A stretch of DNA of 62,799 bases from Oscillospiraceae bacterium. GTDB lineage: Bacteria > Bacillota > Clostridia > Oscillospirales > CAG-272. The stretch's first letter is position 1, and every line of letters begins with the position of its first letter. The position numbers and the translations under genes were made by a program. Positions 11,237 through 60,460 of the stretch are shown here, one piece after another. Location of the stretch: positions 1 through 62,799 of the forward strand of contig SVRP01000013.1 of assembly GCA_015064735.1 (NCBI GenBank). The letters run 5' to 3'. Below the pieces are notes generated by a model that saw only the letters and a list, made by a program, of their open reading frames with translations, did not search any database and had not been told where the DNA came from.

Positions 11237-11279
11237 AAAACAAACGGGGCTGCCTCAAATTTTCATTTGAGGCAGCCCC
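11237..11279 (-). terminator. Terminator of the murE operon
   Basis: A perfect 15-bp stem (11246-11260 with 11265-11279), followed on the minus strand by a run of T. Its core matches the hairpin at 2514-2553. Confidence 0.85.
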
Positions 11280-11337
11280 TTCTATGATACTGTCAATTAT
11301 AATGTTAAAGGTTAATAGAGCAATGTTGTAAAAAACA

Positions 11338-12834
11338 TCACATAATTGAAGGCTGATATTTTTCGCAGAACTCCTTGATGATGTCTACCTCCGAAAATTC
11401 CTCGCGGACTCCGTTTATCATCTGATATGACTCGTGTCCCTTGCCTGCTAAGAGAATTATGTCTCCCGCCTCGGAATTTTCAAGAGCATATTCGATTGCC
11501 TTGCGTCTGTCGGGAATGGCAACGTAGGGACATGTACCGTTTGTAAAATACGTCGCAATCTCGCTTATGATTACAGCCGGGGATTCGCGGTCGGGGTTGT
11601 CGGAGGTGAGTATACAGAAGTCTGCATCTCTCGAAGCTACGAGACCGAGCTCTGCGCGGCGGATTTTGGTCCTTCCTCCCACCGAGCCGAAAAGGCATAT
11701 GAGACGCTTGGGCTCGTAAGCGCGAAGCGCAACCAGCGCTGCCTTAAGGCTTACGCCGTTGTGCGCGTAATCTATTACTGTTGTTGCACCGTTGGGAAGC
11801 TCGTAGGTCTCAAAGCGTCCCTTTACGCGGATGTCCTTAAGAGACGAGGCTACATCGGATGCCAAAATGCCAAGGCCGTCGCAAACGGCTACGGCAGTAA
11901 GAGCGTTATATACGCTGAAATCTCCGGGGAAAGGAACCGAAACGGGAATAACAGTCTCGCCTTCGATACAGTTGAAGTTTACTCCCACACAGCCCGAGGA
12001 GCGGAAATATTTTATGTCCTCTGCCTTGAAGGAAGCGGCTTTGAAGAGTGAAATGCTTGCTTTTTTGCAGTTGTTGCCTGCAATCATCTCCTCTGCGTAT
12101 TCATCGTCGGCGTTATAGACTATATAATCTGCGCCGTAGTCGGTGAACAGTGAGTGCTTACATTCCTTATAGTCGTCAAAGTCGGGGTGTTCATGCTCTC
12201 CGATATGGTCGGGAGAGAGATTGGTATATACGCAGATGTCGAATTTAATACCGTGAACTCTCGCCATTTTAAGCGCCTGAGAGGAAACCTCCATTACGAG
12301 GATTCTGACTCCCTCGTTAAGCATTTCTCTCATGTAATAATGAAGCTCGAGACTTTCGGGAGTGGTATTTATGGTGGGATAAATATTGTCGGTAAAATAA
12401 ATTCCGTTAGAGCCGATATATCCGGTAGGAATACCTCTTGCGTTGAGGACGTTGTATATCATAAGAGAGGACGTGGTCTTACCCTTGGTTCCCGTAACGC
12501 CAATAACGGTCAGATCCTTTGAGGGATGATCGTAAAATGCGGATGAGAGCTGGGCAAGGGCAACACGCGTGTCCTTTGCCACGATGACAAATGCGTCATC
12601 CGGGAGAGTTATGGGATGCTCTATTACAAAAACTCTGCACATACGGCCGTACGCGCCCCAAGCGTAGTCGTGTCCGTCGTTCATAGAGCCCGAAATGCAA
12701 ACGAACATGGAGTTCTCCGAGACCTTTCTGGAATCGCAGCATATAGCTTTGATATCAGCGGTTCTCGGATCAATTCCGGAGCGGTTGATTATTTCGGTAT
12801 AATCGACTACCTTTAAAAGTTCACTGATTAACAT
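11338..12834 (-). CDS. murE: MurE-type UDP-MurNAc-tripeptide ligase
   Basis: A 498-residue cytoplasmic Mur ligase that adds the third residue to UDP-MurNAc-L-Ala-D-Glu using ATP. Seen: the P-loop GVTGTKGKTT (~residue 110), the central-domain Lys in YKECKHSLF, and AGKGHESYQ near the C-terminus. The substrate-specificity motif is DNPD (residues 412-415, D415 from 11592), where enzymes for meso-diaminopimelate have DNPR and lysine enzymes have DNPA or similar. The third amino acid therefore cannot be taken as meso-DAP. It overlaps the upstream racemase gene by 14 bp and is far from any division cell-wall cluster in this window, so it may be an accessory MurE paralog. Terminator at 11279-11237. 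Confidence 0.85.
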   Translation of the reverse strand: MLISELLKVVDYTEIINRSGIDPRTADIKAICCDSRKVSENSMFVCISGSMNDGHDYAWGAYGRMCRVFVIEHPITLPDDAFVIVAKDTRVALAQLSSAFYDHPSKDLTVIGVTGTKGKTTSSLMIYNVLNARGIPTGYIGSNGIYFTDNIYPTINTTPESLELHYYMREMLNEGVRILVMEVSSQALKMARVHGIKFDICVYTNLSPDHIGEHEHPDFDDYKECKHSLFTDYGADYIVYNADDEYAEEMIAGNNCKKASISLFKAASFKAEDIKYFRSSGCVGVNFNCIEGETVIPVSVPFPGDFSVYNALTAVAVCDGLGILASDVASSLKDIRVKGRFETYELPNGATTVIDYAHNGVSLKAALVALRAYEPKRLICLFGSVGGRTKIRRAELGLVASRDADFCILTSDNPDRESPAVIISEIATYFTNGTCPYVAIPDRRKAIEYALENSEAGDIILLAGKGHESYQMINGVREEFSEVDIIKEFCEKYQPSIM

Positions 12835-13579: not shown

Positions 13580-13979
13580 TTTCTAAATACCTTTCATTAA
13601 AAAGAGGGTGGGAAAATACAGAGTCCTTTCGGTCCAAAATAATATAACGGCTTTCAAGCTCCGATTTTGTGTCAGAAACCAGTTCTTTTGCCTTATTCGA
13701 CATTGGAACGATAACGAGGGTCAGCTCATCTCTTTCAAGGGCAAAATCAAGTAGCCGTTCTCCAAAAAGGCGAGGATTTTCCTTCTCTGCCCACGGCATG
13801 GCTCCGCATTTGGGATTAAATAACGATACAAAAAGACATCCCTTGCCGTAAAATACCGAGCAAACTCCGTATTTTGCATAAAGCTTTAGAGAAAAAAGTA
13901 ATGCAGAAAAGGGATTTCCACCAAGTATTACGGGTAAAACTCCCGAGCCCAAAAGGATTTTTCGTTCTCTGCTCGACAT
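13572..13979 (-). CDS. Short ATP-grasp N-domain-like protein, probably a remnant
   Basis: A 135-residue first gene of the murE operon. The opening 'VLPVILGGN...KLYAKYGV' and the later 'LTLVIVPMSNKAKELV...YIILDR' resemble the pre-ATP-grasp domain of clostridial carboxylate-amine (D-amino acid) ligases. Those proteins usually run to about 400 residues with the ATP-binding domains next; here the protein stops about 20 residues after the point where they would begin. It could be a truncated pseudogene, or a stand-alone domain kept for regulation. The frame itself is clean and the gene keeps tight overlap with the racemase. Similarity is judged by eye and is weak. Confidence 0.5.
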   Translation of the reverse strand: MSSRERKILLGSGVLPVILGGNPFSALLFSLKLYAKYGVCSVFYGKGCLFVSLFNPKCGAMPWAEKENPRLFGERLLDFALERDELTLVIVPMSNKAKELVSDTKSELESRYIILDRKDSVFSHPLFNERYLENE

Positions 13980-14019
13980 ACCTGTCCTCCGATGCTTTAA
14001 GCATACTTAATCAAAATAC

Positions 14020-14048
14020 ATTATATCACATATATGAAAAATTGTCAA
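14020..14048 (-). promoter_or_regulatory. Promoter of the murE operon
   Basis: Minus strand TTGACA (14048-14043), 17-nt spacer, TATAAT (14025-14020); the start is predicted near 14013, 34 nt before the first ATG at 13979. Confidence 0.85.
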
Positions 14049-14095
14049 ATGCTTTTGCACTCTTTTCAAAAATTACCCCAATTTCGAAAAAGCTC

Positions 14096-14124
14096 TTGAA
14101 AAAGCCGAGATTTTTTATTATAAT
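14096..14124 (+). promoter_or_regulatory. Promoter of the GNAT-ManA gene
   Basis: TTGAAA (14096-14101), 17-nt spacer, TATAAT (14119-14124); the start falls about 24 nt before the ATG. It is divergent from the murE promoter, with the two -35 elements 47 bp apart. Confidence 0.8.
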
Positions 14125-14154
14125 TACACTATATACAAACGGATCGGTGGTAAA

Positions 14155-15702
14155 ATGAAAAAAGAAAGTATCTGCAGTATTTTTATGAATATGCCTGACC
14201 TTGCAACGGAAAGGCTTATACTCCGTCCCATGCGTGAATCGGATGCAGACGATATGTATTCTTATGCCTCAAGAAATGACGTAACCGAGTATCTTTTATG
14301 GTCTCCCCATCCGTCGAGGGGGTATACGCGGGATTATCTCAGGTATATATCCTCAAGATATAAGCTGGGCGATTTCTACGATTGGGCAGTAATAGAAAAG
14401 ACAAGCGGGAAAATGATAGGGACCTGCGGATTTACACGCTTTGATCCTCCGCACAACGGAGCCGAGATAGGGTATGTGCTGGGACCCGATTATCACGGGA
14501 GAGGCTATGCCACCGAGGCGGCAGAACGTGTTGTCGAGTACGGCTTTTCGGAGCTTGGACTTCATAGGATCGAAGCAAGATTTATGATGGGAAACGAAGC
14601 GTCTTTAAAGGTAATGGAGAAGCTCGGAATGACCTTTGAGGGATATAAAAGAGACGGAATGCTTGTAAAGGGTAAGTACCGCACAATAGGAGTTTGCTCC
14701 ATAATTGAGAATGAATGGAAGGAAAGAAAAATGATTGAAACGTGTATGAAAAAATACCCCTTAAAGCTGGATTGCGTGTCCAAATCCGCAATCTGGGGAG
14801 GCAACAGATTAAGAAATAATTGGAACAAGCACGGAGAGGGCGAGAATATTGCCGAAACCTGGGAGCTGACCGTAAGGGAAAAGGAGAATTCGAAAATAAC
14901 CAACGGCTGCTATGCAGGGGCTACTCTTTCCGATTATATAGAGAAGTGCGTAGGAGCTGTATCTTCCGATTATAAGGCGGGCGAGAGATTTCCTCTGCTT
15001 GTGAAATTCATAGACGCTGCCGAAAGTCTTTCGGTACAGGTACACCCTGATGACGAATACGCAAAGACGGTAGAAAACGACAGCGGAAAGACCGAAATGT
15101 GGTACATAGTGGATGCAACCAAGGATGCGGAGATAATATTCGGACTTGCTGACGGGGTAGACAAGGCCGAATTTTCGAAAGCCGTAGACAATGGAGGACT
15201 TGACCGAGTTATGAAGCGCGTCAAGGTCAAAAAGGGAGACAGCTTTTTCATTCCCGCGGGAATGCTTCACGCAATAGGAAGGGGAATTCTCATTGCCGAG
15301 ATACAGCAGAATTCCGACCTTACGTACCGAGTCTACGATTACGATAGGGTAGGAGCCGACGGCAAAAAGCGAGAGCTTCATACAGACAAGGCGAAAGACG
15401 TTGTACGTCCGTTTACCGACTGTGAATCTGAGTCTATCAGATATTCAAGAGGTAAAACCGAGAATTGCCTTGCGGCAAGCAAATATTTTAAGGTTGACAA
15501 GCTTGACCTTTCCGCGGGTAAGTCCACGGAATTGACGGTTGACAAATGTTTTGTATCTCTCCTTTGTGTTGACGGAGAGGGAGCTATCGAATATAACGGC
15601 GAGGAATATCCGATAAAAGTGGGAGACAGCTATTTTCTCCCCGCGGGCATGGGTAAATGCGAGATTTGCGGAAACGTAACTATACTTTGCTCGACGATTT
15701 GA
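14155..15702 (+). CDS. GNAT acetyltransferase fused to mannose-6-phosphate isomerase
   Basis: One uninterrupted 515-residue frame with two enzymes. Residues ~14-185 are a RimJ/RimL-type N-acetyltransferase (ERLILRPMRESDADDM, GYVLGPDYHGRGYATEA for acetyl-CoA binding, NEASLKVMEKLG). Residues 193-515 are a full short type I mannose-6-phosphate isomerase (ManA; SAIWGG, VQVHPDDEY, KTEMWYIVDA, IPAGMLHAIGRG with the zinc ligands), which links fructose-6-P and mannose-6-P. The isomerase part begins at Met193 (14731), preceded by GGAAGGA about 8 nt upstream, so it could also be made alone by internal initiation. There is no stop between the halves. Such a fusion is unusual; a lost stop codon between two formerly separate, coupled genes is the simple explanation. 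Confidence 0.85.
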   Translation: MKKESICSIFMNMPDLATERLILRPMRESDADDMYSYASRNDVTEYLLWSPHPSRGYTRDYLRYISSRYKLGDFYDWAVIEKTSGKMIGTCGFTRFDPPHNGAEIGYVLGPDYHGRGYATEAAERVVEYGFSELGLHRIEARFMMGNEASLKVMEKLGMTFEGYKRDGMLVKGKYRTIGVCSIIENEWKERKMIETCMKKYPLKLDCVSKSAIWGGNRLRNNWNKHGEGENIAETWELTVREKENSKITNGCYAGATLSDYIEKCVGAVSSDYKAGERFPLLVKFIDAAESLSVQVHPDDEYAKTVENDSGKTEMWYIVDATKDAEIIFGLADGVDKAEFSKAVDNGGLDRVMKRVKVKKGDSFFIPAGMLHAIGRGILIAEIQQNSDLTYRVYDYDRVGADGKKRELHTDKAKDVVRPFTDCESESIRYSRGKTENCLAASKYFKVDKLDLSAGKSTELTVDKCFVSLLCVDGEGAIEYNGEEYPIKVGDSYFLPAGMGKCEICGNVTILCSTI

Positions 15703-53568: not shown

Positions 53569-53657
53569 GCCGGTGTGGCGGAATAGGCAGACGCCCGGGA
53601 CTTAAAATCCCGTGATACGAAAGTATCGTACCGGTTCGACCCCGGTCACCGGCACCA
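53569..53657 (+). tRNA. tRNA-Leu (anticodon UAA)
   Basis: 89 nt with encoded CCA. Acceptor GCCGGTG/CACCGGC, anticodon stem CGGGA/TCCCG with loop CTTAAAA (TAA at positions 34-36), a long variable arm GATAC/GTATC and T-arm ACCGG/CCGGT. All stems pair. Confidence 0.95.
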
Positions 53658-53681
53658 AAACGGTTCAGCGAAAGTTCATAT

Positions 53682-53757
<76 letters not shown>

Positions 53758-53759
<2 letters not shown>

Positions 53760-55324: not shown

Positions 55325-55645
55325 TTATACCACAATTTTGCCTCTGTATGACCCAATACCTCCGATATCGTGAACCTCCCGATATCCCTTGCCTTTCAGA
55401 TAAGCCGCCGCGCGTGCGCTTCGTCCTCCGCTGAGGCAATGGACGTACAGAGGGACATTTTTATCTTTTATAATAGAATCCACTTTGTCGATCTCGTCAA
55501 GCGGAAGATTTCGGCTTCCCTCAATATGTCCGCTTGCGTATTCCTCTCTCGTTCTGACGTCGAGAAGAATTGCGTTTTTGCTTTCACGGAAGTTTCTGAC
55601 CCCCTCGTTAATATCCTTACGTGCGAATATATTAAAAATACTCAT
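55325..55645 (-). CDS. Rhodanese-like sulfurtransferase
   Basis: 106 residues; ATG 55645 with AAGGAGG upstream, the longer frame being non-homologous and crossing the operators. A single rhodanese domain with LLDVRTREEYASGHIEG and the active loop HCLSGGRSAR (Cys70). Family role: transfer of sulfane sulfur. Divergent from the CoA-disulfide reductase gene, each with a GTGAC-N4-GTCAC site. Confidence 0.88.
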   Translation of the reverse strand: MSIFNIFARKDINEGVRNFRESKNAILLDVRTREEYASGHIEGSRNLPLDEIDKVDSIIKDKNVPLYVHCLSGGRSARAAAYLKGKGYREVHDIGGIGSYRGKIVV

Positions 55646-55678
55646 TTTGTATCCTCCTTGTATTTTGATTACGGCTTT

Positions 55679-55720
55679 ATTATAACACGAAAGCAGAGTC
55701 CCGTCCGTGACTTTTGTCAC
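55679..55720 (-). promoter_or_regulatory. Rhodanese promoter and operator
   Basis: Minus-strand TATAAT (55684-55679) predicts a start near 55672. The perfect palindrome GTGACTTTTGTCAC (55707-55720) is centred 41.5 bp upstream of it, with no good -35 box, as in class II Crp/Fnr-activated promoters. Confidence 0.65.
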
Positions 55721-55781
55721 AAGATGATTTGAGTTGATTTTTGGCACAAAATATGATAAAATAAGCTTGGAATATGCTTGA

Positions 55782-55823
55782 GTGACAAAAGTCACAGCGG
55801 ACACGGAAAAGGTATGGTAAAAT
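55782..55823 (+). promoter_or_regulatory. CoADR promoter and operator
   Basis: The palindrome GTGACAAAAGTCAC (55782-55795) is centred 41.5 bp before the start (near 55830) predicted from TAAAAT at 55818-55823. It is the same sequence as the rhodanese operator read on the other strand. Confidence 0.6.
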
Positions 55824-55855
55824 ATACTCACAGAAAGAAAAACGGAGGTAAGCTT

Positions 55856-57538
55856 ATGAAGACCTTGATCATAGGAGGCGTGGCAGGCGGTGCGTCCTGC
55901 GCGGCAAGACTCAGAAGGCTTGACGAAAAAGCCGAGATTATTATATTGGAGCGCGGAGAGTTTATTTCCTTCGCAAACTGCGGACTTCCTTATTATATCG
56001 GCGGTGAGATCACAGAAAAATCAAATCTTACTCTGCAAACACCCGAGAGCTTCAAGGCTCGTTTCAATATCGAAGTTCGCACATTCAGCGAGGCGGTTGC
56101 CATTGATACCGAAAACAAGATCGTTACGGTCAAAGATCTGAAAACAGGTGAGGAATACGCCGAGCGATACGACAGCTTGGTTCTTTCTCCGGGGGCTTCT
56201 CCCATTCGTCCGAGGATCGATGGAATCGACAGCGACAGGGTGTTCACCCTGCGAAACATTCCCGACACCATGAAGATCAAGCGGTATATAGATGAAAACC
56301 ATCCGAAATCGGCAGTTGTGGTCGGCGGCGGATATATCGGCGTGGAGATGGCTGAAAATCTTGCCAACGCAGGACTTGACGTAACTATCGTGGAGCTGTC
56401 CGACCATCTTATCGCTCCCCTTGATTTCGATATGGCGGCAGACGTTCACAGATATATCAAGTCGAAAGGTGTCAAGCTCGCCCTTGGTAACGGTGTGGTT
56501 GCTATCAAGGAGCGTAACGATGCTCTGACTGTCATATTGAACAACGGCGCTATCGACACGGATATGGTTCTTCTGTCCGTAGGCGTGCGCCCTGATACCG
56601 CTTTTATCAAGTCAGCCGGAATAGAAACAAACGAACGCGGCAGTATCATTGTGAATGAGAAAATGCAGACGAGTGCTCACGACGTGTACGCTGTGGGCGA
56701 TGCTGTGGCGGTCAAGAATTTCGTAACGGGTGAGCCGTCCTTTATTCCGCTTGCGGGGCCTGCCAACAAGCAAGGACGCATCGCGGCGGATAATATCGGC
56801 GGTATCCCCTCGGAATATAAGGGCACGCAAGGCTCGTCGGTGCTGAAGCTCTTTGATATGACGGTCGCCACCACGGGTCTGAACGAAAAAAGCGCGGCTG
56901 CCGCAGGCTACGACTATGACAAGACCTACACCTATTCCGCATCTCACGCATCCTATTATCCGGGAGCATCCATGATGTCGGTCAAGGTGCTGTGGGATAA
57001 GGCAACGCATAAGATCCTCGGCGCGCAGATCGTAGGCTTTGACGGTGTGGATAAGCGTATGGACGTGATCGCCACCGCCATGCGGCTCGGCGCGAAAGTG
57101 ACCGACCTTGCGGAGCTTGAGCTTTGCTATGCGCCCCCCTTCGGCGCTGCCAAAGACCCCGTGAATATGGTAGGATTTGTTGCCGAAAACGTCATCACGG
57201 GCAAGATAGGTCAGTTCTTCTGGCACGACGTGGAAAAGCTCCCACGCGACGGAAGCATTACGCTTCTTGACACGCGAACAGCCACCGAGGTCGCACGCGG
57301 AAAGATCGACGGATTTATGCACATTCCGCTTGACTCGTTGCGCGAGCGCATCCACGAGATCCCCGTAGGCAAGCCCGTGTACGTGCATTGTCACAGCGGT
57401 TTGCGCTCTTATATCGCTTGCCGCATTCTTGCCGGCAACGGCTTTGAGTGTTACAATCTCGCAGGCGGATGGCGGCTCTATGAGTCGGTCATAAACGAAA
57501 GAACGGTGCCCGAATATGTCTGCACCGAATGCAAATAG
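55856..57538 (+). CDS. CoA-disulfide reductase with C-terminal rhodanese domain
   Basis: 560 residues; ATG 55856 with GGAGG 7 nt upstream. FAD/NAD(P)H pyridine-nucleotide-disulfide fold: LIIGGVAGGASCAARLRRL, redox Cys42 in FANCGLPYYIGG, VVVGGGYIGVEMAENL and VYAVGDAV. Residues ~470-560 are a rhodanese domain with Cys512 in HCHSGLRS. Known CoADR-RHD enzymes reduce CoA persulfides, polysulfides or CoA disulfide. Likely partner of the divergent rhodanese and the thioredoxin downstream. Confidence 0.88.
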   Translation: MKTLIIGGVAGGASCAARLRRLDEKAEIIILERGEFISFANCGLPYYIGGEITEKSNLTLQTPESFKARFNIEVRTFSEAVAIDTENKIVTVKDLKTGEEYAERYDSLVLSPGASPIRPRIDGIDSDRVFTLRNIPDTMKIKRYIDENHPKSAVVVGGGYIGVEMAENLANAGLDVTIVELSDHLIAPLDFDMAADVHRYIKSKGVKLALGNGVVAIKERNDALTVILNNGAIDTDMVLLSVGVRPDTAFIKSAGIETNERGSIIVNEKMQTSAHDVYAVGDAVAVKNFVTGEPSFIPLAGPANKQGRIAADNIGGIPSEYKGTQGSSVLKLFDMTVATTGLNEKSAAAAGYDYDKTYTYSASHASYYPGASMMSVKVLWDKATHKILGAQIVGFDGVDKRMDVIATAMRLGAKVTDLAELELCYAPPFGAAKDPVNMVGFVAENVITGKIGQFFWHDVEKLPRDGSITLLDTRTATEVARGKIDGFMHIPLDSLRERIHEIPVGKPVYVHCHSGLRSYIACRILAGNGFECYNLAGGWRLYESVINERTVPEYVCTECK

Positions 57539-57656
57539 CGGGCAGTGCCCGCCGCCAATCACTCGCCTATTCAAGCATTTTTGGTATATGAAGCAACGGC
57601 AACGGCGAGGGTGCTTATTTCAATTTATTATGAAAAAGAACAAGGAGGTATATCTT

Positions 57657-57959
57657 ATGTCAGTACAAAAACTGAATCAAAATAATTTTAATAACGCAAT
57701 CGCAAACGGCACGGCTCTCGTGGATTTTTATGCCGATTGGTGCGGACCTTGCCGTATGGTTTCTCCCATCGTGGACGAGATCGCCGAGGAAAGAAGGGAC
57801 ATTACCGTTGGCAAGGTGAACGTAGATGATGAGAACGCCCTTGCTATGAAATACGGCGTGATGAGTATTCCCACGCTGATCGTCTTTCAGGACGGAAAAG
57901 AAAAAACAAGAATCGTCGGAGCAAGACCCAAAGCCGCCATTCTTGCGGAATTGGCATAA
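57657..57959 (+). CDS. Thioredoxin
   Basis: 100 residues; ATG 57657 after AAGGAGG. DFYADWCGPCRMVSPIVDEI with the CGPC active site (Cys29, Cys32) and the cis-Pro in MSIPTLIVF. 118 bp after the CoADR gene, after a small hairpin (CGGGCA/TGCCCG). Reduces disulfides or persulfides, here probably those of the sulfur module. A terminator follows. Confidence 0.92.
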   Translation: MSVQKLNQNNFNNAIANGTALVDFYADWCGPCRMVSPIVDEIAEERRDITVGKVNVDDENALAMKYGVMSIPTLIVFQDGKEKTRIVGARPKAAILAELA

Positions 57960-57968
57960 ACGCGATAT

Positions 57969-58016
57969 ACAGGCAGACCGCCACGGCTCGTTTTGATCCG
58001 CGGCGGTCTGCTTTTC
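57969..58016. terminator. Bidirectional terminator
   Basis: Stem GCAGACCGCC(A)CGG/CCG(C)GGCGGTCTGC then TTTTC; between the convergent thioredoxin and chrA genes. Confidence 0.8.
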
Positions 58017-58029
58017 ATCTGATTCATTT

Positions 58030-58605
58030 TTACAGGGAATACAGGATCATCCCGAGTCCTGCCGATATCAGTATCAACAAAATCGGCGAAAGCGGTTTTT
58101 TTCCGATTCTTTTGGAGATCACAGCCGTCGCGGCAATGATCGCGAAAATAATCAATCCCTTTCCGTCGGGGATCACCGCGCTGTCAATGCTCTTAAAGGA
58201 AAAAAGCGTACTCATAAACATGGTAATCGCCGTTGCCAATATCAGTCCGACCACGCAAGGGCGGATGCCGCCCAGAAGAAATGCCTGAACACCATTGTAT
58301 TTCAAAATATTGCCTATCAGCGCGGCGATGATCAGTATGATGATAAAGGACGGCAGCACAACGCCGAGGGTTGCGAGAAAAGAGCCGAGAATGCCGCCCT
58401 GTGCAGAACCGACGAAGGTTGCCATATTCACGGCGATAGGACCGGGCGTGGATTCCGAAACAGCAATCATATTCAGCAGTTCTTCCTCTGTGAGCCATCC
58501 GTGAATCAGTACTTTTTCTCGAATGAGCGAGATCATTCCGTATCCACCGCCAAAGGATACGGCACCGATCTGCAAGAAAGTCAAGAACAATTCAAGGTAG
58601 ATCAT
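58030..58605 (-). CDS. Chromate transporter-type protein, short form, second of pair
   Basis: 191 residues with about six membrane segments. FGGGYGMISLIREKV and SESTPGPIAVNMATFVG are CHR-family signatures. It begins inside the stop of the first gene (ATGA), so the pair is made together and probably forms a heterodimer equal to a full ChrA. Family transporters move chromate against protons; the natural ion may be another oxyanion such as sulfate, since the pair sits in a sulfur module. Confidence 0.85.
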   Translation of the reverse strand: MIYLELFLTFLQIGAVSFGGGYGMISLIREKVLIHGWLTEEELLNMIAVSESTPGPIAVNMATFVGSAQGGILGSFLATLGVVLPSFIIILIIAALIGNILKYNGVQAFLLGGIRPCVVGLILATAITMFMSTLFSFKSIDSAVIPDGKGLIIFAIIAATAVISKRIGKKPLSPILLILISAGLGMILYSL

Positions 58606-59177
58606 TTGCCGGCCCACTTCTTTTCTCGGAGCAGACCGAGCGCATAGATAAACAAGCCGATACTGCCCGATAGGAGAATGTAGAATATCGTTGAGAAGCT
58701 GACCGAAAGCACCGAAAACGCCACCATGCACAGAATAACGGCAGATAGAATCAGGATATTGAATGCCGTTTTCTTCATCTGCTTCAGCATTTTCAGCCCT
58801 GCCGAAAGGATCAGCCATATCACACAGACCTGTATTCCTCTGAAGGCATACGACACAAGGGTGATGGACAGAAAGGCATCAAAGAACAGAGATATGGCGT
58901 ATATGATGACAAAGGATGGGATACAAACCGCCACGGTTGCCGTAAGCGAGCCGAGAAAGCCGAGCATTTTGTAACCGATATAGGTGGCGGCATTGATAGC
59001 AATCGGTCCGGGCGTGGACTCGGCTATGGCAACCATATCGAGAAACTCGTCTTTTTCGATCCATTCCTTTTTGGATACGAATTCATTTTCCAGAAGGGCG
59101 ATCATGGCGTAACCGCCGCCGAAGGTAAACAGCCCGATTTTGAACATGGTCAGAAACAGATTCAGATATTTCCTCAT
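58602..59177 (-). CDS. Chromate transporter-type protein, short form, first of pair
   Basis: 191 residues. FTFGGGYAMIALLENEFV and AESTPGPIAINAATYIGY are CHR signatures. It is 61 bp after the Crp/Fnr gene in the same direction and overlaps the second chrA-like gene by 4 bp. An export role for an oxyanion is the family expectation, not proven here. Confidence 0.85.
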   Translation of the reverse strand: MRKYLNLFLTMFKIGLFTFGGGYAMIALLENEFVSKKEWIEKDEFLDMVAIAESTPGPIAINAATYIGYKMLGFLGSLTATVAVCIPSFVIIYAISLFFDAFLSITLVSYAFRGIQVCVIWLILSAGLKMLKQMKKTAFNILILSAVILCMVAFSVLSVSFSTIFYILLSGSIGLFIYALGLLREKKWAGK

Positions 59178-59238
59178 TTGCGTTTCCTTTCAATCCGACA
59201 AAACTTCTTGCGCTCTTTCTCCTTCTCTTGAATGGGGA

Positions 59239-59904
59239 TCAATAGGCAATACTCCGCAGCTTCTTTTTGTCCGTGATCAGGATGCCCTTTCTTGTAACCT
59301 CGATCACGCCGTCGGCGGCAAGATGCTTCAGCATCCTCGTAATTACCTCCCGAGCTGTTCCGAGGTGTCGGGCGATGGTTTCGTGGGTCATATTCACGCT
59401 GTCGGTGCGGCTTACCTGGATTTCTTCGAGAAGGAAGATGGCAAGACGTTTGTCCATGCTCATAAAAACGATCTGCTGCATGACCCACATGACATCGGAA
59501 AAACGGCTGACGGCTGTTTCCAAAGCGTAATTCTTTACCTCAAGATAGCGATTGCTGACGTCGCCAAAGGCAGACGCGCTGATGTGGTAGCAGTCGCTCT
59601 CCTCCTCCGCGTCTACGTATACGTCGAAGGTTACGCTCTGCAAAACGCAGGAAGCCGAAAGCATACAAATGTCACCCGGCGAGAGGCGATAAAGGGTGAT
59701 CTCCTTGCCGTCCTCGGAAAGCATATAAAGACGAAGCCTGCCCGAACGCACGATAAAAAGTCCAGTGCAGCCCATATTGTCGTGAACGGGTTGGGAGCGG
59801 TCGAAGTGCTTTTCTGCCGTGTTTTCGCACAGTAGCTGCTTGTCCGCATCGGCAAGCACACTCCAGAATGGGAAATAGGTTTCATAGAATTTTTCAAGCG
59901 GCAT
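59239..59904 (-). CDS. Crp/Fnr family transcriptional regulator
   Basis: 221 residues; ATG 59904 is 8 nt after AGGAG. N-terminal cyclic-nucleotide-type beta barrel (LFIVRSGRLRLYMLSEDGKE), a long dimer helix, and a winged helix with MTHETIARHLGTAREVITR and GVIEVTRKGILI. The recognition helix keeps R-E-x3-R, the residues that read GTGA in Crp. No N-terminal FNR iron-sulfur cysteines; the pair in ICMLSASC could be redox sensing. Likely binds the GTGAC-N4-GTCAC sites in the rhodanese/CoADR gap (inference). Confidence 0.85.
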   Translation of the reverse strand: MPLEKFYETYFPFWSVLADADKQLLCENTAEKHFDRSQPVHDNMGCTGLFIVRSGRLRLYMLSEDGKEITLYRLSPGDICMLSASCVLQSVTFDVYVDAEEESDCYHISASAFGDVSNRYLEVKNYALETAVSRFSDVMWVMQQIVFMSMDKRLAIFLLEEIQVSRTDSVNMTHETIARHLGTAREVITRMLKHLAADGVIEVTRKGILITDKKKLRSIAY

Positions 59905-59935
59905 GGCTTCGACTCCTTTCAAATGACTTTTTTGT

Positions 59936-59964
59936 ATTATACCATATTTTTATGAATTTTTCAA
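59936..59964 (-). promoter_or_regulatory. Promoter of the Crp/Fnr gene
   Basis: Minus strand TTGAAA (59964-59959), 17 nt, TATAAT (59941-59936). No GTGAC-N4-GTCAC palindrome lies here, so autoregulation through that site is not seen. Confidence 0.75.
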
Positions 59965-60031: not shown

Positions 60032-60460
60032 TCACCGTCTCCTCGCTGCCGTTTGTAAAGGTGAACACAAGCCGTCCGCAAACTGCTTGCGCTTGCCCCA
60101 GGTGATGTTCTCGGAAATGGAACGGCTTTCCTCTTGCGCCAAGGATGACATTATCGTGAGGAGCAATTCTCCCTTGGAGTCGAATGTCCATATGTTCTCC
60201 TTTTCAAAGAAGCCCTCACGATTATGATAGGAAAGACCGGAGATGCCGTCATCCACATAAAGTCCTACGAACTCCCACCGAGGGTTCTCCTTGATATAAT
60301 TTTCAAAATAATCGGTTTGCGCTTCCGGGCTGTGCTCCTGTTCCTCCTTTTCGGTGGACACACGGGCGTAGGCGGCGACTCGCAGCTTTGCCGTAGGAGC
60401 TCGACCGAAGTCCCCAAGTCGGGGAGCGAATTCAACCTGTGTAACTTTTCTCTTCGGCAA
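60032..60460 (-). pseudogene. Large serine recombinase, internally deleted and truncated
   Basis: 142 codons, TTG start after GGAGG. The resolvase N-terminus is present with the catalytic Ser in AAYARVSTE and VDDGISGLSYHNREGF. The text then jumps straight to FEKENIWTFDSKGELLL and LAQEESRSISEN, skipping about 45-50 residues that normally lie between them (with the second catalytic Arg region). It ends a few residues into the linker, so the DNA-binding half is lost. In-frame deletion plus truncation makes it inactive. It marks the region as formerly mobile. Confidence 0.85.

Follow-up and report, generated by a model that had tools for sequence, protein, structure and literature searches.

A stretch of 62,799 nucleotides from an Oscillospiraceae bacterium (contig SVRP01000013.1 of assembly GCA_015064735.1; hereafter the window) carries two divergent genes, rhd for a rhodanese and coadr for a CoA-disulfide reductase (CoADR)-rhodanese fusion, and in the gap between them two matched operators, O1 and O2, of the form GTGAC-N4-GTCAC. 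We consider it probable, judging from comparison of related loci, that these are the sites of a thiol-redox activator of class II type, a Crp/Fnr protein encoded by the nearby gene crp, and that the operator spacer has moved by one base pair in the clade to which this regulator belongs. The analysis is comparative throughout, and many of the genomes used are incomplete metagenome bins.

In the mechanism we propose, the regulator would be made constitutively and would bind O1 and O2 as a dimer, activating from -41.5 two extended -10 promoters without a -35 element, that of rhd and that of coadr and the thioredoxin gene trx behind it. Persulfide or disulfide stress would be sensed through Cys86 and Cys92, together with Cys52, and the CoADR-rhodanese, rhodanese and thioredoxin made under such stress would return sulfane sulfur to sulfide and thiols by breaking down persulfides and polysulfides. 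For regulators with these three cysteines, the usual operator would be GTGAC-N3-GTCAC, equally far from the -10 box; in the window's clade, the distal half-site would lie 1 bp further away (N4), which would set its operators apart from those that N3-type regulators use. The family would have broken with the fixed half-site spacing of its superfamily: most members would read an odd-centred GTGA-N5-TCAC, while the window's clade would have moved to the canonical GTGA-N6-TCAC with half-site and -10 distance kept, so that two paralogous regulons within a single cell would be kept separate by spacer length alone, which would act as an address of one base pair. We give this last, more far-reaching proposal an even chance.

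Operators, promoters and the one-base-pair shift

O1 and O2 represent one site in opposite orientations (coordinates of all features are given in the table). A sequence-only reading of the window had described them as perfect palindromes, which holds for the 5-bp arms, exact inverted repeats, and fails at the centre, where TTTT/AAAA is not self-complementary. The 2.11-Mb genome has three exact copies of the motif: the two of this gap and one within a 472-codon frame (C22:13749), the last of which we take as chance and reject as an operator. With the -10 box added to the pattern, O1 and O2 are the only matches without mismatch in the genome; by sequence criteria, the pair is not a product of chance. 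When up to two mismatches are allowed, the count in the window is close to the chance level (18 matches where 13.8 are expected, a count reached in 17 of 100 shuffles), so only exact sites carry meaning. A search of the window genome for further targets with operator and -10 box at up to two mismatches gave 14 matches, against 19 for the reversed-pattern control. The regulon detectable in this way thus consists of two promoters, those of rhd and of coadr(-trx).

On both sides, the operator arm ends 22 bp from the -10 box, which by the usual numbering would centre both sites at -41.5 from the predicted starts, as the earlier reading had it. Its remark that neither promoter has a good -35 is likewise borne out, and none of the two-hexamer promoters from the window promoter scan ends at the rhd or at the coadr P1 -10 box. 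A site near -41.5 combined with a weak or absent -35 is what characterises class II Crp/Fnr promoters at the sequence level. Because the half-sites end 22 bp before the -10 and good -35 elements are lacking, we regard class II activation as well supported, although predicted.

To place these sites in context, we kept the best 80 of 366 relatives from a regulator search of genome contigs (L001-L080). A rhd-coadr gap was recognisable in eight loci (the window, L005 and L008-L013), and all eight retain both 14-mers exactly, including the AAAA/TTTT centre; the sequence-only reading had tied its case to such conservation. The surroundings of the sites vary among the seven gaps that were aligned, L011 having been left out. 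The rhd-side -10 lies at 22 bp in 8/8 loci, the coadr-side -10 at 22 bp in six and at 23 bp in two (L009 and L012). Six close relatives (L001-L004, L006 and L007) yielded no match to the site pair, and in five of them the fetched contig stops before the gap. Within L011, the operator-bearing rhd promoter is found twice in similar form (11250-11330 and 12037-12117, 787 bp apart), with no rhd frame recognised behind it there; a doubled rhd-type promoter also occurs in genome G330 (C44:38553 and C44:39340).

More distant relatives carry the same GTGAC arms around a three-base spacer, GTGAC-N3-GTCAC, which is odd-centred. Among these loci, L001-L022 hold 20 N4 sites and one N3 site, and L023-L080 hold 37 N3 sites and one N4 site. 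Of the exact sites, 65 of 72 with N3 and 26 of 38 with N4 have a -10-like hexamer at a distance of exactly 22 bp, against a background of 0.4%, in a count that includes some loci fetched twice from different collections. The proximal half-site is therefore fixed, and it is the distal one that shifts by 1 bp, giving centres of -41.5 (N4) and -41 (N3). We also scanned 120 loci, which amount to 1.31 Mb and may in part overlap. GTGAC repeats followed by a -10 box at 22 bp occurred there 53 times at spacer 3, 17 times at spacer 4 and never at spacers 2, 5 or 6, while 59 other orders of the same arm, over the same spacers and loci, gave two matches in all. After removal of identical stretches, 115 distinct promoters remained, 91 N3 and 24 N4. 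Their -35 is never better than 4/6, a value reached by 5/91 N3 and 3/24 N4 promoters, and a TG one base upstream of the -10 is present in 17/24 N4 and 23/91 N3 promoters. A scan for the bare 14-mer across the order was uninformative (8 of 295 genomes gave 10 matches in total, and a reversed-pattern control gave 6), and was replaced by the pattern with the -10. The picture of an N3 operator widespread among relatives and an N4 operator concentrated in the window's clade is absent from the sequence-only reading, and the shift seems to be a new observation: the open-access literature searched yielded no report of an N3 operator or of this regulon, and no paper on the operator strings or on a Crp protein together with these sulfur genes.

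Regulator types, spacers and target genes

Spacer length tracks the type of regulator. We built a tree from 150 distinct rows, derived from 181 loci with a regulator after sequences below 200 aa and identical cores had been left out. All 15 N4 rows fall into one clade of 27 (support 100), together with two N3 and ten unassigned rows. Outside this clade there are 81 N3 rows, 42 unassigned rows and no N4 row, the weak N4 site of L133 having been left out: one-mismatch N4 sites were counted only for L014 and L020, and L133, which lies outside the clade and has AAAAAT as its -10, was dropped by rule.

The same association emerges from a scan for site and -10, independent of neighbourhood, in 295 genomes of the family. 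The raw scan found N3 in 61 genomes (four reversed-control matches) and N4 in 24 (eight control matches). Genomes were then classed by identity to the window regulator, entered by hand (the assignments of G392 and G458 rest on partial matches), and promoters were kept if their -10 had at least 5/6 matches. N3 promoters occur in 32/44 genomes with only an N3-type regulator, 2/13 with only a window-type regulator, 10/29 with relatives of 35-43% identity and 5/207 in which none was found; for N4 promoters, the respective counts are 1/44, 9/13, 1/29 and 2/207. Compared with genomes in which no regulator was found, Fisher tests give 2e-25 (N3) and 1e-11 (N4), values to be read with the related genomes not being independent. 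Both kinds of promoter are present in the two genomes that hold both regulator types, G458 and G305, the latter 8% contaminated and possibly a mixed bin. The link between regulator and operators that the sequence-only reading had drawn gains support from these comparisons.

We looked for the basis of the spacer change in the protein. Eleven positions separate the window's clade from the rest. L015 and L018, which lie inside the clade and have N3 sites, share its residues L187, T189 and H200; the residues that these two have in common with N3 regulators are few, and differ between them. Between R140 and R191, no row differs in length except one of the 123 outside the clade. A second Crp paralogue that reads the N3 sites of L018 and L015 was also rejected, as each of these genomes has a single match at 1e-30.

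The genes behind the 115 promoters, called by a simple rule, extend the picture. Thioredoxin follows 52 promoters, and genes of a cluster that pools thioredoxin reductase, CoADR and rhodanese follow 20 (5 N3, 15 N4), the N3 members that were looked at being thioredoxin-reductase-like. Desulfoferrodoxin (7 promoters), 4Fe-4S ferredoxin (6), ferritin (4) and a CcdA-like protein (2) come next, along with a small Cys-rich protein (5) that has no Pfam match and presumably resembles a ferredoxin:thioredoxin reductase subunit. Eleven genes are singles, rubredoxin and rubrerythrin among them, as well as several without an evident redox link, and no gene was called for eight promoters. The regulon of the wider group thus looks like one of thiol and oxygen defence, on which background the window's close relatives seem to have specialised on CoADR-rhodanese and rhodanese. 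Genome G426 has five exact N3 promoters, some before genes without an evident redox role (L207, L261 and L262), hinting at a wider regulon there. Four genomes (G366:C28, G418:C31, G535:C38 and G549:C13) share a near-identical stretch that carries an N4 site but no good -10, perhaps a conserved coding stretch.

Several observations weigh against the proposed scheme. In the close relative L006, the sequence continues for 6 kb beyond a shortened coadr frame, and neither rhd nor the sites are present; the gap there is lost or misassembled. Inside the window's clade, L015 has one N3 site (one mismatch) and L018 has one exact N3 site and one with two mismatches. A tree in which all N4 rows are held as one clade is rejected (p-AU 0.0003), and N4 is therefore not a clean once-only marker: it may have originated at or close to the clade's stem, with later reversal, or have arisen more than once. 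The association of spacer and clade rests on few independent changes, three on the constrained-test tree. Among genomes with only the window-type regulator, 4/13 have no exact N4 promoter and 2/13 have an N3 one, and 12/44 N3-type genomes have no exact N3 promoter. Bin incompleteness would fit some of these exceptions: the window-type genome G330 (80% complete) carries N3 promoters upstream of a thioredoxin and a thioredoxin-reductase-like gene, and in G344 the N4 promoter precedes CoADR. It does not fit G481, whose regulator is N3-type and which has an exact N4 promoter before a gene without an evident redox role. Neither a change in length nor a single set of residues was found that explains the spacer change. 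Finally, the targets of the wider group suggest general redox stress over persulfide as the signal. Of the signals named in the sequence-only reading, persulfide would fit the effectors of the window, and the targets of the wider group point to general thiol and oxidative stress; for an oxyanion, no evidence was found.

The regulator, its signal and its mode of action

The 227-aa crp product, by which residues are numbered here, scores over the cut-offs of PF00027, PF13545 and PF00325 and so belongs to the Crp/Fnr superfamily, whose members share a sensor domain of cNMP-binding type, a long dimer helix and a Crp-type helix-turn-helix. Its model (mean pLDDT 83.6, pTM 0.60) shows a helix at 127-171 and the helices of the helix-turn-helix. 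The closest solved structure is 3DV8, by sequence (6.5e-63; profile 2.2e-77) as well as by fold (E 3.3e-24, TM 0.57, rmsd 13.4); it represents EUBREC_1222 of Eubacterium rectale, which belongs to the same sequence family over nearly its whole length, shares the CTG and CxLSASC segments, and was deposited as a putative Crp/Fnr protein, with a structure only. The window protein is not assigned to the cAMP receptor protein equivalog (NF008732, 43.6 bits against 266) or to FNR (NF008365, 35.8 bits against 228); FNR has an N-terminal Cys cluster, whereas the first Cys here is C32. Nor does it qualify as HcpR2, with Glu192 in 150/150 homologues and GTGAC arms. It belongs to a Clostridia-wide Crp/Fnr group with three near-invariant cysteines, C52 (149/150 homologues), C86 (150/150) and C92 (149/150). 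The segment C86-MLSAS-C92, already put forward as a sensor from the sequence, remains the candidate; in the model, a short helix (88-94) lies between C86 and C92, and C52 sits in a loop flanked by strands 45-47 and 55-60; in the Crp fold, these strands line the cyclic-nucleotide pocket.

The same protein and operators could also respond through heme or another cofactor held by H47, C52, C86 and C92, with CO, NO or redox state as the signal via a metal, an alternative that we find unlikely. Among solved structures, CooA ranks second by sequence (5.5e-7), its GDMFCMHSGC aligning with GDICMLSASC, and H47 is kept in 143/150 homologues. However, the columns of the CooA heme ligands, Cys75 and His77, align with M87 and S89 and not with C86, and the named targets in the family are thiol and oxygen-defence genes. 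PgRsp, which was modelled on 3DV8, does bind heme (PMC6955866).

A second alternative concerns the direction of control. Between O1 and O2 lies a candidate second coadr promoter, P2, from a scan that found nine promoters against 6.1 from shuffles, and a regulator bound at O2 could act as a repressor that blocks P2 and is released by the signal. This is supported by the P2-like element being visible in all seven aligned gaps (of eight), pointing at coadr with O2 downstream of it. Yet P2 and O2 lie at distances that vary from gap to gap, while 22-23 bp separate O2 from the P1 -10, and 91 N3 promoters keep the 22-bp rule without a good -35, which makes repression as the sole mode rather improbable. 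P2 might equally provide a basal supply of coadr, and repression and activation could coexist. It is very improbable that another regulator reads the sites with the neighbouring Crp protein as a bystander, as the 5/207 (N3) and 2/207 (N4) genomes with promoters and no detected regulator might suggest, given that the sites co-occur with the regulator type and lie near crp, that no other protein of the window genome matches the crp product at E 0.001, and that the recognition helix fits the half-site.

This helix, R191-E192-x3-R196 as read earlier from the sequence, is near-invariant (R191 and E192 in 150/150 homologues, R196 in 149), and should fit CRP-like half-sites by the rule of PMC1274295, which links recognition-helix positions to half-site bases. 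The regulators HcpR1 and HcpR2 described there, Crp/Fnr proteins that control redox genes in Clostridia and other anaerobes, also use 5-bp arms around an N4 spacer (GTAACnnnnGTTAC, TTGACnnnnGTCAA). Their core targets are hcp and frdX, unlike in the window; HcpR2, with the GTAACnnnnGTTAC operator, has Pro in place of the recognition-helix Glu, and no N3 spacer is found in the available part of that paper. The Crp/Fnr activator CprK likewise has N4 between 5-bp arms, with an unlike half-site, TTAAT; it senses chlorophenols, and is inactivated in vitro by a disulfide between Cys11 and Cys200, the physiological role of which its authors call unclear (PMC2610375). The geometry of the window's N4 operator equals the TGTGA-N6-TCACA of E. 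coli CRP and Thermus TTHA1359, and TTHA1359 lost observable binding at a spacer of 5 or 7 bp (PMC8465061). Since the N3 operator of the relatives corresponds to a 5-bp spacer, it would be N3 that is the unusual partner, N4 having the canonical CRP geometry. In the literature consulted, it is the bases contacted by the recognition helix that distinguish Crp/Fnr proteins; here, the regulator types share their recognition residues and half-sites, and the spacer differs by 1 bp and follows the regulator type. Natural N3/N4 pairs make it testable how a Crp dimer measures its operator, and a one-base-pair change may keep two sister switches from interfering.

With respect to the effectors, the nearest parallel is the cst-like operon of Enterococcus faecalis, with a CoA persulfide reductase that carries a C-terminal rhodanese (C42 and C508; C42 and C512 in coadr) and additional rhodaneses. 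That operon is controlled by the dithiol repressor CstR (PMC9405070), whereas the window would use a Crp-type activator. CsoR/CstR-family proteins (PF02583) had 0 matches in the window genome (95% complete), with 6/14 control genomes positive. The window's system may thus represent a Crp-type alternative to CstR for the control of persulfide enzymes, and it offers a candidate operator and regulon for a regulator common in gut Clostridia that, to our knowledge, is known only from the uncharacterised structure 3DV8.

Gene order and surroundings

Features of the rhd-coadr-crp region, in window coordinates
Feature	Position	Strand	Description
rhd	55325..55645	-	single-domain rhodanese, 106 aa, Cys70 in VHCLSGGRS; PF00581 9e-16
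rhd -10 box	55684-55679	-	TATAAT, TG one base upstream, 22 bp from O1
O1	55707..55720		operator GTGAC-N4-GTCAC, GTGACTTTTGTCAC, predicted centre -41.5 of rhd promoter
P2	55734..55762	+	candidate second coadr promoter TTGATT-17-TAAAAT, between O1 and O2; 9/12 matches; overlapping alternative 55729-55757
O2	55782..55795		operator GTGAC-N4-GTCAC, GTGACAAAAGTCAC, predicted centre -41.5 of coadr promoter P1
coadr P1	55815..55823	+	extended -10 TG-G-TAAAAT, hexamer TAAAAT 55818-55823, 22 bp from O2
coadr	55856..57538	+	CoA-disulfide reductase-rhodanese fusion, 560 aa, Cys42 and rhodanese Cys512; TIGR03385, NF010037, PF00581
trx	57657..57959	+	thioredoxin with WCGPC, 3' of coadr; TIGR01068 118.5 bits, over cut-off
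chr, second half	58030..58605	-	CHR-type transporter half; PF02417 6.4e-45
chr, first half	58602..59177	-	CHR-type transporter half, behind crp; PF02417 8.2e-51
crp	59239..59922	-	Crp/Fnr regulator; PF13545, PF00027, PF00325; 3dv8 6.5e-63
crp promoter	59936..59964	-	TTGAAA-17-TATAAT, 11/12 matches, TG before -10; promoter scan

The predicted coadr product combines a CoADR core with a C-terminal rhodanese, each with its cysteine, as is characteristic of CoADR-rhodaneses (CoA persulfide reductases); it scores 525.2 bits with TIGR03385, below the cut-off of 578.8, and 395.2 with NF010037, over its 394. The scan of the window genome for operator and -10 found no operator before trx itself, which we infer to be co-transcribed with coadr. 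For crp, the start ATG 59904, preceded by AAAGGAG, is more likely than TTG 59922. No exact operator was found at the crp promoter in the genome-wide scan, and as this promoter is close to consensus and operator-free, crp is likely to encode a constitutive sensor.

The thioredoxin and the two-gene CHR transporter (58030-59177) named in the sequence-only reading are both present; its regulon of five effector genes contracts, with operators before rhd and coadr(-trx) only. No operator precedes the chr pair, which sits behind crp and its canonical promoter, and membership in the regulon is not supported for the window. L005 is the only relative in which the pair (13935-15093) closely follows an operator-driven rhd, and there it may belong to the regulon. 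CHR transporter pairs occur at varied positions near such regulators, also at L066 9107-10296, adjoining an N3-type regulator, and L008 13014-14173. A second rhodanese-like frame lies behind trx, convergent with crp, in L002, L006 and L008-L013 (for example L008 8701-9360); the window has no such frame and instead carries the two chr genes behind crp.

The distribution of the regulator within the genus is patchy, with matches of 79% (G550), 56% (G407, N3 type) and 41% (G366) and no match at 1e-40 in five genomes, which suggests horizontal spread. The module is flanked by tRNA-Leu and tRNA-Met genes on one side (53569-53759, + strand) and on the other by a frame (60032-60460, - strand) whose match to the Resolvase domain covers only positions 1-52 of 145.

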